Shown: positions 1 to 4,702 of the stretch, piece by piece | Layout: the number at the start of each line of letters is the position of its first letter | Position numbering within the stretch: position 1 is the first letter of the stretch | Virus record (IMG/VR): IMGVR_UViG_3300047370_000200 | Location: 1 to 22,324 of that record | DNA: 22,324 nt | DNA from: a virus | Direction: 5' to 3' (one strand) | Translations under genes and position numbers: made by a program | Notes under the pieces: generated by a model | What the model saw: the letters and a program-made list of their open reading frames with translations, nothing else | The model's database searches: none | Told to the model about the DNA's origin: nothing

Positions 1-512
1 GCTTCTCTTTCTTCAGCTCGTGCGTCTGGTGTTTGAACGGATTGCTTAATGACATCTCTTGCTTCTTTCTGTTCAGGCGTTAGTGCTTCGTATGCTTTCT
101 GCATTTGTCTTTCTTTGCCAACCTTAACTCCCAAGAAAGATGTGGTGGTTGGTATAGCCACACCTTCATACTTACTTCCTATCGGTGGGGTAATAGTACC
201 TGTCTCCACCAACTCATTCACCAATGGCTGTGCAACCTCGACTGCCTCAACCCAATTATCAGCGACCGCATCAGCTTGGAAGTAGACTCCACTACTTATA
301 GCTATACAGCCACTCATTCCCATACTCTGAGCCTGTGCTACCACAGACTGTACTACTGTTTCCCTAGCTATCGATTCGGTGGCAATGTGGTCACGAACAT
401 CGAAAGACTTGCTAGTGCTTTCATCAGAGCTATAAACATCTCCCTTAGCACCCGACCTAGTAATCGTGCCTTTGATAATAACTTCTTCACCATCTGAAAA
501 ATATTCACTCAT
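1..512 (-). CDS. Unknown phage protein, 5' part (runs off the left edge)
   Basis: This is an open frame of at least 170 codons with no stop before the window edge, so only the N-terminal part is present. It begins MSEYFSDGEEVIIKGTITRS. An alanine/valine-rich segment follows (residues about 45-75, with SVVAQAQSMGMSGCIAISSG), and the right-hand end of the visible part is charged and helical (QKAYEALTPEQKEARDVIKQ). The ATG at 512 overlaps the stop of the upstream 81-residue gene, as elsewhere in this operon, with a G-rich stretch just before it. No transmembrane segment or signal peptide is evident. I do not recognise a family. Its place after the host-recognition genes suggests a virion accessory or late gene, but that is only context. 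The two plus-strand frames over the same DNA read as low-complexity shadows. Confidence 0.7.
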   Translation of the reverse strand, partial: MSEYFSDGEEVIIKGTITRSGAKGDVYSSDESTSKSFDVRDHIATESIARETVVQSVVAQAQSMGMSGCIAISSGVYFQADAVADNWVEAVEVAQPLVNELVETGTITPPIGSKYEGVAIPTTTSFLGVKVGKERQMQKAYEALTPEQKEARDVIKQSVQTPDARAEERE

Positions 513-750
513 CCCCTAATCCGTAATCCTCTGGTACTCCATTAATCTCATCTAAAGTAACTGGTATACCAATTTCATTAGCTTCATTAACTACTGTTGT
601 ATCTGTTACATCATATATTAAAAACTCTTTTGCACTTTCAAGCTCTTGGATTGGAGTTACATAACCACAAGTCCAATTATTTACATTATTGTAGGCAACA
701 AAATATGTAGTTTCTTCTGGAAATTTAATTTCTACTGATTCTAAACTCAC
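505..750 (-). CDS. Small acidic protein of unknown function (81 aa)
   Basis: The start is GTG at 750, placed by a GGAGG ribosome binding site six bases upstream, and it shares GTGA with the stop of the PKD/DUF285-like gene. The protein begins MSLESVEIKFPEETTYFVAY and ends with an acidic tail (VPEDYGLGDE). It has alternating hydrophobic residues suggestive of beta strands and no membrane segment. I recognise no family. Being translationally coupled behind a putative surface adhesin, it could be a chaperone or small virion partner of that protein, much as small genes follow tail-fibre genes in many phages, but nothing in the sequence proves this. Confidence 0.7.
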   Translation of the reverse strand: MSLESVEIKFPEETTYFVAYNNVNNWTCGYVTPIQELESAKEFLIYDVTDTTVVNEANEIGIPVTLDEINGVPEDYGLGDE

Positions 751-1652
751 GCCCTACCTCCATCTACAATGGTGAACCCATAATTATCGATTAAATTTCT
801 TTTAGCAGGATAAGAAGGTATCGTTGGACTAGCTGTATAAGTTGAGTCTCCCATACTCATAGTAATGTTTCTGATATTAGTGTTATTATTAGCATATTGA
901 TTAATAGCTATAAGCAACCTACCATACTCATCAGAGCTTGCTAGTTTAGTTTCAGCGTGTGTTGATTGAGAATCATTCAAAAACATATACAACATTTCTA
1001 AACCATTATTAGTTAGTCCGTTAAAATTCCATCTACTTATATCAGTTGTAACAACACCCGCACTTTGAAACATACCTTTGTAGTTATTAACCTTACTAAA
1101 ATCAAACCTACTTAAGTCTACAGTTTTATTGGAGCCTGTTCTTAAAAACATATACTGAACATTGTCTTGAGGAACAGAAGGTCTAGTTGCAAATGTAACA
1201 GAAGTCAATCCGTTCATTTTTACAAAAGCACTTTTGAAGGAATCAGTCCGATTACTACCGCCATAATTAGGATTAATTTTTCCAAAGCCACTACCAATAA
1301 CTATACTAGTATAAGCATTTTTAATATCTTGATTGTATATACCCTTAATAGCCTCGGCTCTAAATCTAGGTATTTCAATGTTACCACTTGCAGGACTTAT
1401 TGTAATATTATAAGTTCCATTGGAAACATAAGAATGAGCAGGAGCGTTAAAAGTATAGTCCTGATTAATGGTCTCTGTAGGTGAACCATCACCCCAATCA
1501 ACTACATATCGTTGGCTTCCACTAAAAGGCAACTGACACGTTTGATTTTCAGGTGTATTAACAACATAAGTTAATACTGTATTAATAGAAGGTAACAACC
1601 CACCAACACCAGCACCGAATGAACCGAAGCCCGCTCCAAACGAACCAAACAT
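747..1652 (-). CDS. Putative virion surface/adhesion protein with PKD-like and BspA/DUF285-like regions (301 aa)
   Basis: Three parts can be seen. Residues 1-20 are a Gly/Phe repeat (FGSFGAG twice), probably a flexible or virion-binding tip. Residues about 25-90 look like a PKD immunoglobulin-like domain, with the hallmark DWGDGSPTET (52-61) and HSYVSNGTYNITI (73-85). Residues about 164-227 contain repeats in the style of DUF285/BspA leucine-rich proteins: two blocks, VDLSRFDFSKVNNYKGMF and TDISRWNFNGL, then LYMF. The C-terminus (INQYANNN to IVDGGRA) is compatible with the same repeat continuing. There is no signal peptide or membrane segment, as expected for a virion protein. The gene follows the tail fibres, so binding to a host surface is likely. 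The domain calls come from motif reading only; the adhesion role is inferred. Confidence 0.7.
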   Translation of the reverse strand: MFGSFGAGFGSFGAGVGGLLPSINTVLTYVVNTPENQTCQLPFSGSQRYVVDWGDGSPTETINQDYTFNAPAHSYVSNGTYNITISPASGNIEIPRFRAEAIKGIYNQDIKNAYTSIVIGSGFGKINPNYGGSNRTDSFKSAFVKMNGLTSVTFATRPSVPQDNVQYMFLRTGSNKTVDLSRFDFSKVNNYKGMFQSAGVVTTDISRWNFNGLTNNGLEMLYMFLNDSQSTHAETKLASSDEYGRLLIAINQYANNNTNIRNITMSMGDSTYTASPTIPSYPAKRNLIDNYGFTIVDGGRA

Positions 1653-1978
1653 TACACTTCTCCGAGTGTCACCACGTTAATGATCGCAGAGGTAGCAATA
1701 CGCTCACCTGCACGAACAATAGTAGTGTAAGAACTCCCGAATGTAATTAGCTTGCCGAGCGTGTATCCAGTTCCAGTCCCATTAGGAACAGTAGTTGTTC
1801 CGTTAGGTGTTACTGATACATACGCATCTGATGCTGTTGGTGTGATAACAACGTGACGATCACTAGTTGCATCCCATACAGTCGTAGACGCTCCTGTTAA
1901 ATTTTGTGCAGACGACACTCTAAGATGTGCAAACTGCATTTTATTTTGGTATCTATCTTCTGCTATTTTTACGTTCAT
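1652..1978 (-). CDS. Small beta-rich protein of unknown function in the fibre region (108 aa)
   Basis: The protein begins MNVKIAEDRYQNKMQFAHLR and continues as a Thr/Val/Gly-rich chain (VVITPTASDAYVSVTPNGTT) with the alternating pattern of beta strands. It ends in ATSAIINVVTLGEV. It shares one base with the next gene (TAATG) and begins 34 bases after the second fibre's stop, with AAGGT ahead of the ATG. Composition and position fit a small decoration or fibre-associated protein, but I recognise no family and assign no function. Confidence 0.75.
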   Translation of the reverse strand: MNVKIAEDRYQNKMQFAHLRVSSAQNLTGASTTVWDATSDRHVVITPTASDAYVSVTPNGTTTVPNGTGTGYTLGKLITFGSSYTTIVRAGERIATSAIINVVTLGEV

Positions 1979-2011: not shown

Positions 2012-3298
2012 TTATCCTCTAAGCATTGCTCCTTGAATGTGAATACGTGCAGAATCTCCATTAGAAGAAGCATCAGTTGTTGTTCCTTCTACATTAATTC
2101 TAAAAACTAATGGTTGACCATCTCTCATAGCTTGGGTAACAGGTAATACTGCACAAGAACTAGTGTTAAATTGTAACCCACTAGCAGTACTATATTTATT
2201 ATTTGTTAGCGTACTTAATATGTGTTCCTTATAAAGTGTAGAAGTTCCACCTCTATAGTATCTACCTCTAACAAAGCATCGTCTATTTTGTCCTAGATCT
2301 CCGCTACCAAGAAGTGTTGTCGCTCTTAGTATTAAAGCATAACATTTACTTTGCCATCCAGTTTCAGCGGTAGATAATAAGTCATTAAGATAAGTTGTTA
2401 TAATAAACTCACCTGTATTTTGACCAAAATTATTTACATACTCAATATAAGTATTAGTATCTGATGCAGGTTTAGCGGCTGTTGATCCTGCTGTCCAATA
2501 TGAACCAGAAGCAGTTGCTCCATTTGTTCCATTTATTTCAATAAATCTAGGAAATGTATTTGTTATCTGTGAATCAATATAAGATTTAATTGCTTCAGAC
2601 GTAGATAGATTAGTAGCTGTAGCAGTACCCATTGTATCATCATCTATAACATCACTTAACTTTGCAAACGGAATAGCTTTTACAGCAAAGTTTCCATTAG
2701 TATCAAACTCCATTGTAGTGTTATCAACTTTTCCTGATATAATAGAGTTAGTAACCTCAATACCTTTATTGTTATTTGCAGCACCTGCTTGTAAATTAAG
2801 TAAATCTAACTCAGAAATATTACCATTAGTATCAAAGCCTAATGCTTTATTAGCCCGTCTAGTAGTTGAGCCTACTGTATATGTAGTTGTAGATGGATCA
2901 GTTTCAGGAAAAACAACTGTTCGATTTAACTGATCATTTTGCTGTTGATTCTGTGCTACTATCCGGTCGAATGATTTATTTAAAGCCGTTGGATCAATAG
3001 TTGATCCTTCCTGAAGATCATATTCCTGAGTGTAAGGCACTTCTCTAAATATAACTACTTTGTCGTGGATAGTTAATGCAGGAGATATTGTAATAACAAC
3101 ATCTGCACCTAACTCTACGTTGCCATTAGTAGCTGATACTGTAAAAGAAAAATCAGAAGAGGGTACAATATTTCCATTAGCTAATACAATAGATACCTTA
3201 ATATCACTAACATTAAAAAAAGGTAAAGTAAATTGAAAATTAGTTTGCCCCGCTGATGGTGTAAACTCTTGTCTATTATTTGTTGTACTTAAAGCCAT
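2012..3298 (-). CDS. Tail fibre protein 2, T7 gp17-like N-terminal anchor (428 aa)
   Basis: Residues 1-165 resemble the T7-type tail-fibre N-terminal domain that joins the fibre to the tail. There is a beta-rich start (FTPSAGQTNFQFTLPFFNV), then YTQEYDLQEGSTIDPTALNK and FDRIVAQNQQQND (about 89-122), and RANKALGFDTNGN (148-160). A short stalk with NNNKGI and AIKSYIDSQ leads to a tip from about residue 246 (FPRFIEINGTNG to HIQGAMLRG) that is unlike the tip of the neighbouring fibre. The first 240 residues align closely with fibre 1, so the two genes are paralogues. The ATG at 3298 follows AAGGTAGAG. It probably binds the host receptor, either together with fibre 1 or as an alternative. Confidence 0.85.
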   Translation of the reverse strand: MALSTTNNRQEFTPSAGQTNFQFTLPFFNVSDIKVSIVLANGNIVPSSDFSFTVSATNGNVELGADVVITISPALTIHDKVVIFREVPYTQEYDLQEGSTIDPTALNKSFDRIVAQNQQQNDQLNRTVVFPETDPSTTTYTVGSTTRRANKALGFDTNGNISELDLLNLQAGAANNNKGIEVTNSIISGKVDNTTMEFDTNGNFAVKAIPFAKLSDVIDDDTMGTATATNLSTSEAIKSYIDSQITNTFPRFIEINGTNGATASGSYWTAGSTAAKPASDTNTYIEYVNNFGQNTGEFIITTYLNDLLSTAETGWQSKCYALILRATTLLGSGDLGQNRRCFVRGRYYRGGTSTLYKEHILSTLTNNKYSTASGLQFNTSSCAVLPVTQAMRDGQPLVFRINVEGTTTDASSNGDSARIHIQGAMLRG

Positions 3299-3309
3299 TC
3301 TCTACCTTT

Positions 3310-4695
3310 TTATAATATTTTTTCAATGTAAACCGTTGCGTGTATTGGTGTACCCATTCCAGTAATAGAACCAGCATCACCAATGTTTGCAACGGTTCCT
3401 GCTGTACTATTAGTTCTAAATTTTAAAGCTACTGTTGTAGTACCAGCTAATGTTAATTTACCAATACAAGAAAAATCGTGTGTTACATTAGATGCAAAAT
3501 CATTAAAACTATGTAACAATTTACCTGCAATTAAAACAGAATCGCTATTTCCTGTGTCAACAATAGCACCTTGAACAAAGTTACTATTATTATTATTATT
3601 CATACCTATATTAGCATCAGCTTTAACTAGATATGTTCCAGCGGTTAATGTAATAATATTTGCACTTACACTCATAGAGGCATCATCGGAAAATGATGCG
3701 GTTAATGGGCAGGTTGTATTACCGCTACTTGATATTGATGTGTCTCCATTTTCTTGATAAATAAACAAAGACCTAAGAACACCGTTGTTATCTACATACG
3801 CTTTAATTGATTGCTGTGTAGCACCCTTAATCGCTGAGTTGCTAGTCATAGTATCTTCATCTAAAAGAATGTCACCGACCAATGCTCTCTCTGCTACTGT
3901 ACCTGTAGCTGTGTTTCCTAGTACGCTGTTAGATGTACTAATGTCCTGTAGCTTATCATAAGTTACATTGTCATTTAAAATCTTATCTGTTGTAACCGCA
4001 TCAGTATTTAGCTTGGCTGCTGTAATACCAGAATCTTTTACAGAAATATTACCATTAACATCAAAAGTTGTAGTAACAGAATCTACTTTAGCCTCTATTA
4101 TGCTATTAACTAAATTAATACCTTTATTATTATTTCCTCCTACTGTATTTGTACTAGATAAATTTAATTCTGTTACATTACCATTAGCGTCAAACCCAAG
4201 AGCTTTGTTAGCTCGTTCTGTTTCAGTTCCTACAGTATATGTACGAGATGAATCATCTGATACTGGAAACTCTACTGTGCGGGTAAAAGAATCATTTTGC
4301 TGTTGGTTCTGTGCAACAACCCGATCAAACGCTTTGTTCAATGCTGTTGGGTCAATGGTTGCACCTTCCTGCAAATCATACTGCTGTGTGTACTCAACGT
4401 CACGTTCAATGGTAAACTTGTCACCACTACTAGATGCTGCAATAGTTATGACACCGCCCTGCGATGGGTCGCCATTAGTTGCGGATAGTTGAAATTGATC
4501 TGCGGTAGGGCTGCTTGTTACTGGTGTGAGAAGTAAGTCTAATCCGCTTCTTGTTCGTGTAACTTTAATGTCACCGTACTTTTTGTTTGCCACGCTAACT
4601 GTAGTTGCGTCAAAAAACGGAATAAGAAATGTTAATGAAGTCGTACCCGCAGTAGGAGTAAAACTAACTTTATTTGTTGTACCAGACAATGCCAT
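3310..4695 (-). CDS. Tail fibre protein 1, T7 gp17-like N-terminal anchor (461 aa)
   Basis: I take the ATG at 4695, seven bases after GAGG, rather than the in-frame TTG two codons upstream; this gives MALSGTTNKVSF, matching the paralogue's MALSTTNN. Residues 1-175 form the tail-anchor domain (RDVEYTQQYDLQEGATIDPT at 99-118, FDRVVAQNQQQND at 123-135, RANKALGFDANGN at 161-173). Residues about 185-305 are a repetitive stalk with short coil-like units (AAKLNTDAVTTDKI). Residues about 308-461 form a beta-rich tip. Its pattern, with ITLTAGTYLVKADA in the middle and paired strands at the end, recalls C1q/TNF-like jelly-roll trimer heads; I hold that fold only tentatively. Five Asn codons in a row lie in the tip. 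Confidence 0.87.
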   Translation of the reverse strand: MALSGTTNKVSFTPTAGTTSLTFLIPFFDATTVSVANKKYGDIKVTRTRSGLDLLLTPVTSSPTADQFQLSATNGDPSQGGVITIAASSSGDKFTIERDVEYTQQYDLQEGATIDPTALNKAFDRVVAQNQQQNDSFTRTVEFPVSDDSSRTYTVGTETERANKALGFDANGNVTELNLSSTNTVGGNNNKGINLVNSIIEAKVDSVTTTFDVNGNISVKDSGITAAKLNTDAVTTDKILNDNVTYDKLQDISTSNSVLGNTATGTVAERALVGDILLDEDTMTSNSAIKGATQQSIKAYVDNNGVLRSLFIYQENGDTSISSSGNTTCPLTASFSDDASMSVSANIITLTAGTYLVKADANIGMNNNNNSNFVQGAIVDTGNSDSVLIAGKLLHSFNDFASNVTHDFSCIGKLTLAGTTTVALKFRTNSTAGTVANIGDAGSITGMGTPIHATVYIEKIL

Positions 4696-4702
4696 AACCA
4701 AA

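Follow-up and report, generated by a model that had tools for sequence, protein, structure and literature searches.

Gene order at the locus

The window analysed here is a record of 22,324 bases from a marine bacterial virus whose late genes lie on the minus strand, as do all window features described below. Their order is terminase, portal, scaffold-like, capsid, tail and internal virion proteins and two tail-fibre-like genes, after which come a 108-aa gene, the gene under study (hereafter the payload gene), an 81-aa gene and a 170-aa gene that the end of the window truncates. The capsid and terminase names were checked by searches, and the other structural names upstream of the fibres were assigned from gene position and reading of the ORFs. 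For the capsid protein, the nearest relatives (~35%) are those of HTVC010P-type Pelagibacter podoviruses, a distant kinship, and the terminase matches these podoviruses too, among many others.

The two consecutive fibre-like genes (2012-4701) have related N-terminal domains. The first (3310..4701) matches phrog_24210, tail fiber protein (1e-7), and the second (2012..3298) carries a phage tail-protein N-terminal domain, with residues 1-131 matching phrog_1640, tail protein (1.7e-10). A full-length relative of the second gene, 68% identical, is found on the L026 contig, where the tag and payload differ.

Directly upstream of the payload gene lies the gene for a 108-aa beta-rich protein (1652..1978), a proposed adaptor that is 81-87% identical at the amino acid level in six contigs with the FGSFGAG tag described below. 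The payload gene itself (747..1652, ATG start) encodes 301 aa, arranged as tag, PKD-like head, DUF285 repeats and C-terminal cap, and its start overlaps the stop of the upstream gene. It is followed by the 81-aa gene (505..750), termed here the partner gene on the basis of its match to a partner-family profile, whose GTG start overlaps the payload stop codon. The 170-aa gene (3..512) is conserved in relatives and marks the right flank. An earlier note, made from the DNA alone, had placed the protein in a podovirus fibre region, in keeping with its position next to fibre-like genes.

Domains and predicted fold of the payload protein

The ORF at 747-1652 carries every string that the earlier note had quoted: MFGSFGAGFGSFGAG.., VDWGDGSPTET, HSYVSNGTYNITI, DLSRFDFSKV and DISRWNF. 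Its first 21 residues form a glycine-rich tag, MFGSFGAGFGSFGAGVGGLLP (1589..1652), common to close relatives in which the protein is otherwise unrelated; the glycine-rich repeat within it is a duplicated FGSFGAG motif at residues 2-15. Residues 23-88 (1389..1586) form a PKD-like (Ig-like) head, assigned from sub-threshold Pfam matches, the family alignment and a leave-one-out profile. With the payload protein alone as query, the score was 17.1 bits for PKD_4 (PF18911; cut-off 27) and 13.5 bits for PKD (PF00801; cut-off 23.5), both below the gathering threshold. We call the segment PKD-like because the aligned segment matches PKD, among the matches listed, in about 26 of the 44 rows of the family alignment, a frequency biased upwards by the selection of relatives with a WGDG pattern. 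DUF285 (PF03382) matches residues 164-224 (981..1163) above its gathering cut-off (E 1.3e-6, 28.5 bits against 25). Only about three DUF285-type repeats, of leucine-rich type, are present, and the BspA-type LRR model (PF13306) gave no match listed for the payload protein at E up to 1, although some relatives match it. The C-terminal cap (residues 243-301, 750..926, ..YGFTIVDGGRA) aligns to the ..YGWTIVDGG.. of phage relatives. Residues 23-101 also match PHROG 14220 (6.8e-7), a family without an assigned function.

Structure prediction, which the earlier note had proposed together with profile searches, was less informative. The single-sequence model had a pLDDT of 35 and the alignment-based model a modest mean pLDDT of 59.5. 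Beta strands were predicted at residues 26-87 with modest model confidence, and PDB matches were weak and mixed: Foldseek retrieved nothing from the PDB at E<=0.001, and VIA-align gave no Z above 5.0. When viral models were searched, the best structural matches were phage proteins of the 26-residue-repeat, PKD and BspA kinds, in line with what the sequence had shown. No close relative of the entire payload protein turned up in a direct scan, and no DNA-level match was found among deposited phages.

A payload family shared by unrelated phages

The decisive test used a profile of 14 phage relatives from which the window was left out. It matched the window protein at E 3.5e-28 (92.6 bits), with an envelope of 13-301 and a profile range of 20-281 of 281; the rows had been aligned with the window present, a small leak. 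Together with the DUF285 score, this confirms that PKD-like and DUF285 segments are joined in one phage protein, as the earlier note had read it; in the profile searches it had suggested, the DUF285 part stood and the PKD part, on the payload alone, fell short. The window protein consists of the 21-residue glycine-rich tag and, behind it, a full-length member of a widespread phage family. In the alignment, members of this family share a PKD-like head (VDWGDGS...HTY..GTY), DUF285 repeats and a 'YGWTIVDGG' cap.

A scan of viral contigs with the alignment, drawn with the WGDG pattern so that PKD frequencies are biased upwards, yielded at least 71 payload relatives; the alignment comprises 43 different relatives and the window. 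DUF285 was matched in 34 of these 44 rows, among the matches listed, and the annotated isolates phage KZY1 and Synechococcus phage S-CBWM1 carry the pair. The full-length family membership and the domain counts of the relatives therefore indicate that the combination of PKD and DUF285 in one protein, which the earlier note had thought unusual, is common in phages, as judged by profile matches. One search used an idealised composite query; its counts indicate no more than that this architecture is common.

In other phages, the payload is annotated as 'putative tail protein' or adjoins tail-assembly or baseplate genes. Apart from a weak portal match in L045, window genes other than those of the module have no homologue in the payload-bearing loci, so the module is shared without the backbone. 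DUF285 proteins occur in many contexts (PMC2996958), and the payload could be a non-virion protein that acts inside the cell or is secreted, its gene being placed among the late structural genes; the operon position, with the payload start overlapping the upstream stop, and the fibre-like neighbours in several lineages make this very improbable.

A replaced cassette with sharp borders

Relatives of the 108-aa gene were found on seven contigs, and the tag pattern added an eighth. Six of the eight (L003, L004, L005, L006, L007 and L015) extend into the next gene. Its product starts with M(S/N)FGSFGAGFGSFGAGVGGLLP, like the MFGSFGAG... of the window, and has a body thereafter unrelated to the window payload. 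The complete replacement payloads of the close relatives are 675-729 aa long. All six closest relatives thus keep the upstream gene and the DNA of the tag, but the remainder of the protein and the following gene are unrelated. The first 21 residues and the preceding 108-aa gene belong to the resident phage lineage.

DNA comparison located a stretch at 532..1588 in which homology to the closest relatives is absent, with homology present on both sides. To its left, between 2010 and about 1588, identity of the window to the six relatives is 86-88%; to its right, from 531 to 1, identity is 98.7% to L021 (the contig of L007), 87% to L025 and 85% to L026. Base by base, the left junction falls within the tag end (..GGGTTGTTACC), and the right junction lies at TTACGGATTAGGGGATGAGTGA, which covers the last bases of the small gene and the first of the 170-aa gene. 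The small gene encodes 81 aa in the window and an unrelated protein of 135-139 aa in the close relatives. All of these small genes end in YGLGDE or YGLGNIGDE; thus, the resident end was kept, and the payload and most of the partner were exchanged. The cassette consists of residues 22-301 together with the 81-aa gene, except for a few codons at its end, and it occupies the place where the close relatives have an unrelated payload and an unrelated partner. The earlier note had pointed to expansion and contraction of DUF285-type repeats as a route to receptor switching; the close relatives of the window differ by replacement of the whole payload and partner.

The identity of the 1-531 flank to IMGVR_UViG_3300049810_001563 (98.7%, compared with about 70-86% for most matching stretches elsewhere) suggests that this flank was exchanged recently. 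The window is the one place where PKD and DUF285 were seen behind this exact FGSFGAG tag, and the case for this particular swap therefore comes from a single genome. Synonymous sites in the tag DNA were not more conserved than those of the upstream gene (Fisher p 0.76-1), and this comparison does not support a recombination hotspot in the tag DNA. By eye, the payloads of the closest relatives have a LamG-like look, which no Pfam or PDB match supports, and we call them unannotated for that reason. An antisense match (E 3e-4, two stops) was taken as a chance match. On L025, a 698-aa protein (L025:5736-7832) with a long tandem repeat (NATNIASNDTDIATNVTNI...) adjoins the cassette.

A small partner gene accompanies the payload

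In unrelated payload-bearing phages, the next gene usually encodes a protein of 60-80 aa. A profile (type A) was seeded from eight such proteins, none of them from the window. Of the 90 ORFs in the window, 505-750 was the best match (E 3.9e-6, 19.2 bits), whereas the best of 2000 shuffled controls reached 8.9 bits. The replaced stretch contains this 81-aa gene of a payload-linked family, and the moving unit is thus the payload plus its partner. Partners of type A or B lie directly downstream of 18 of the 23 distinct complete phage payloads, a count that is descriptive since the type A profile was iterated on the same loci; the window match is an independent test. Relatives of partner A also occur behind other payloads (L088, L102 and L104), so the pairing with DUF285 payloads is not exclusive.

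Type B partners, about 61-72 aa with SYRDDATVQEF..FPDQY, were seen behind DUF285 payloads in different phage types (L042, L048, L053, L056, L059, L084 and L097). Neither the partner nor its relatives matched the Tfa or DUF4376 tail-fibre chaperones in Pfam or a tail-chaperone PHROG, and searches of Pfam and PHROG gave no annotated homologue of known function for the 108-aa gene or the partner. Matches of the partner family to Pfam DUF1348 and to PHROG were sub-threshold.

N-terminal tags and their proposed adaptors

The N-terminal segments of family payloads differ from one another and are richer in glycine than the rest (median 14% against 9%; 25 proteins, Wilcoxon p 5e-4). In unrelated phages, payloads and partners of these families occur together behind other, different N-termini. 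The 108-aa gene is always paired with the FGSFGAG tag. Four contigs carry a second tag, MSLWLNLGQLATRA.., which has a ~100-aa upstream gene of a separate type, and the payloads behind it resemble those behind FGSFGAG... In other phages (L084 and L101), a member of phrog_12296, 'tail fiber protein', precedes the payload, and isolate annotation agrees. These sequence associations support a putative link between tag and adaptor at the tail.

A more general scheme would be that of a tag and a socket, in which each lineage keeps its own glycine-rich tag and matching adaptor and draws payload-partner cassettes from a pool shared by unrelated marine phages, the 60-80 aa partners being new dedicated assembly partners or caps. 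Two tag-adaptor pairs (FGSFGAG.. and MSLWLNLGQLATRA..) have been seen, and we rate this scheme as plausible, at slightly less than even chances.

Origin of the payload

Cellular relatives of the payload are abundant in Bacteroidota genomes, mostly as parts of long and often secreted proteins, and the earlier note had suggested acquisition from a cellular adhesin. This abundance speaks for a recent transfer from such a surface adhesin, for example of a marine flavobacterium. In the tree, however, the smallest well-supported set containing the window consists of eight phage rows (98/91); the window branch is long, so the tree evidence on origin is only moderate and not conclusive. The partner gene, present in phages, is absent in both types A and B from the 731 ORFs around 75 cellular relatives. 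Because of the all-phage tree set and the phage-only partner, the sequence evidence favours transfer between phages; a direct origin in a cellular adhesin is the less favoured reading, and we judge a recent one to be most unlikely.

A proposed role in adsorption

The payload is most likely a virion adhesin or receptor-binding protein with a cognate assembly partner, in agreement with the host-binding role put forward in the earlier note; we infer both its virion location and its binding. That it is a distal receptor-binding protein built of tag and payload, its body swapped as one cassette with the partner, seems to us rather probable. The proposal draws on the full-length membership of a phage payload family, the sharp homology breaks at 1588 and 531, and the replacement payloads of L003-L007 and L015, which bear the same tag. 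It also draws on the partner family found directly downstream in phages and matched by the window's gene, on a module common to phages without the backbone, on the setting beside two fibre-like genes, with a 'tail fiber protein' before the payload elsewhere, and on published precedents (PMC10504331, PMC10579305).

Under this proposal, the 108-aa adaptor would let the tag dock the payload to the tail, and the PKD-like and DUF285 surfaces would bind a cell-surface ligand, probably a glycan or a surface protein. In the manner of fibre chaperones, the 81-aa partner may assist folding or oligomerisation of the payload or keep it capped. Exchange would occur by recombination between co-infecting phages, with the left crossover presumably in the tag DNA and the right one in the shared partner-gene end and the start of the next gene, and could alter adsorption specificity in a single step.

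The strongest alternative is a decoration of the head or neck, a surface adhesin holding the virion on extracellular polymers or mucus-like material, like Hoc-type proteins with Ig/PKD domains, and not deciding host range. In two loci (L088:48-1451 and L104:1404-2807), a single 468-aa fusion protein combines the head-completion domain Phage_HCP (PF05521, above cut-off) with PKD and DUF285, so that the module sits on a neck protein. T4 Hoc also contains PKD domains, as do adhesins of gut phages that have been tested for binding to epithelia (PMC13370021). The window payload, however, adjoins two tail-fibre-like genes, positional counterparts of the gene before it are called tail fibre proteins, and wholesale replacement between close relatives fits host recognition better. 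A decoration role is accordingly less likely, though it deserves more weight than the other alternatives, and we retain the receptor-binding protein as the preferred reading.

Comparison with known systems and implications

Several unrelated phages encode proteins with a PKD-like head followed by DUF285 repeats, as in the window: KZY1 (XPQ49276.1), Synechococcus phage S-CBWM1 (gp93, 'putative tail protein') and the ACG-2014f group. Such phage proteins are annotated under names such as 'BspA family leucine-rich repeat surface protein' and 'surface protein 26-residue repeat'. The KZY1 protein also shares the DGG cap. These proteins differ from that of the window in their N-termini, usually have more repeats and are about 22-27% identical to it in the alignment. 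The repeat unit is that of the PARCEL/DUF285 repeats, which have spread horizontally and occur mainly in membrane proteins of bacteria and protists (PMC2996958); the window version is a tagged phage payload. DUF285 proteins are also packaged in an algal giant virus (PMC7507832).

In the Alteromonas phages A5, V22 and P24, a tail fibre and its cognate chaperone are common to unrelated phages (PMC10579305). As proposed for the window, a recognition protein and a small partner gene move as one module between unrelated marine phages. The Alteromonas chaperones are DUF4376 proteins of 195-239 aa with a tested function, whereas window-type partners have 66-81 aa, no DUF4376 match and a putative role. 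A second parallel comes from HTVC010P-type pelagiphages (Polarivirus skadi), to whose group the window belongs distantly by its capsid protein. These marine podoviruses have a hypervariable region in the virion genes, seen as a read-recruitment gap, with a lectin-type structural gene and an uncharacterised ORF (PMC10504331), and metaviromic islands carry host-recognition genes (PMC3909814). The window likewise has a variable, probably structural gene and an uncharacterised ORF in the virion-gene region, here with a PKD and DUF285 payload. Such regions and islands are known as read-recruitment gaps, whereas in the window the borders, the tag and the partner exchange are seen in assembled relatives.

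The pair of PKD and DUF285 is already known in phages, and the notable result is the replaced two-gene cassette, which suggests a way for such phages to alter their targets of attachment. What changes as a unit is directly visible here: tag and adaptor are fixed, and the body and the partner gene are exchangeable. If confirmed, the tag would mark recognition proteins that have no recognisable domain, as in the replaced payloads without a Pfam match, and tag and partner together would offer a handle for predicting recognition proteins in viromes.

In two other loci (L101:1715-3259 and L187:3063-4625), a phage-encoded GroEL lies beside the adaptor, payload and partner genes, and GroES is annotated next to GroEL in Flavobacterium phage elemo.
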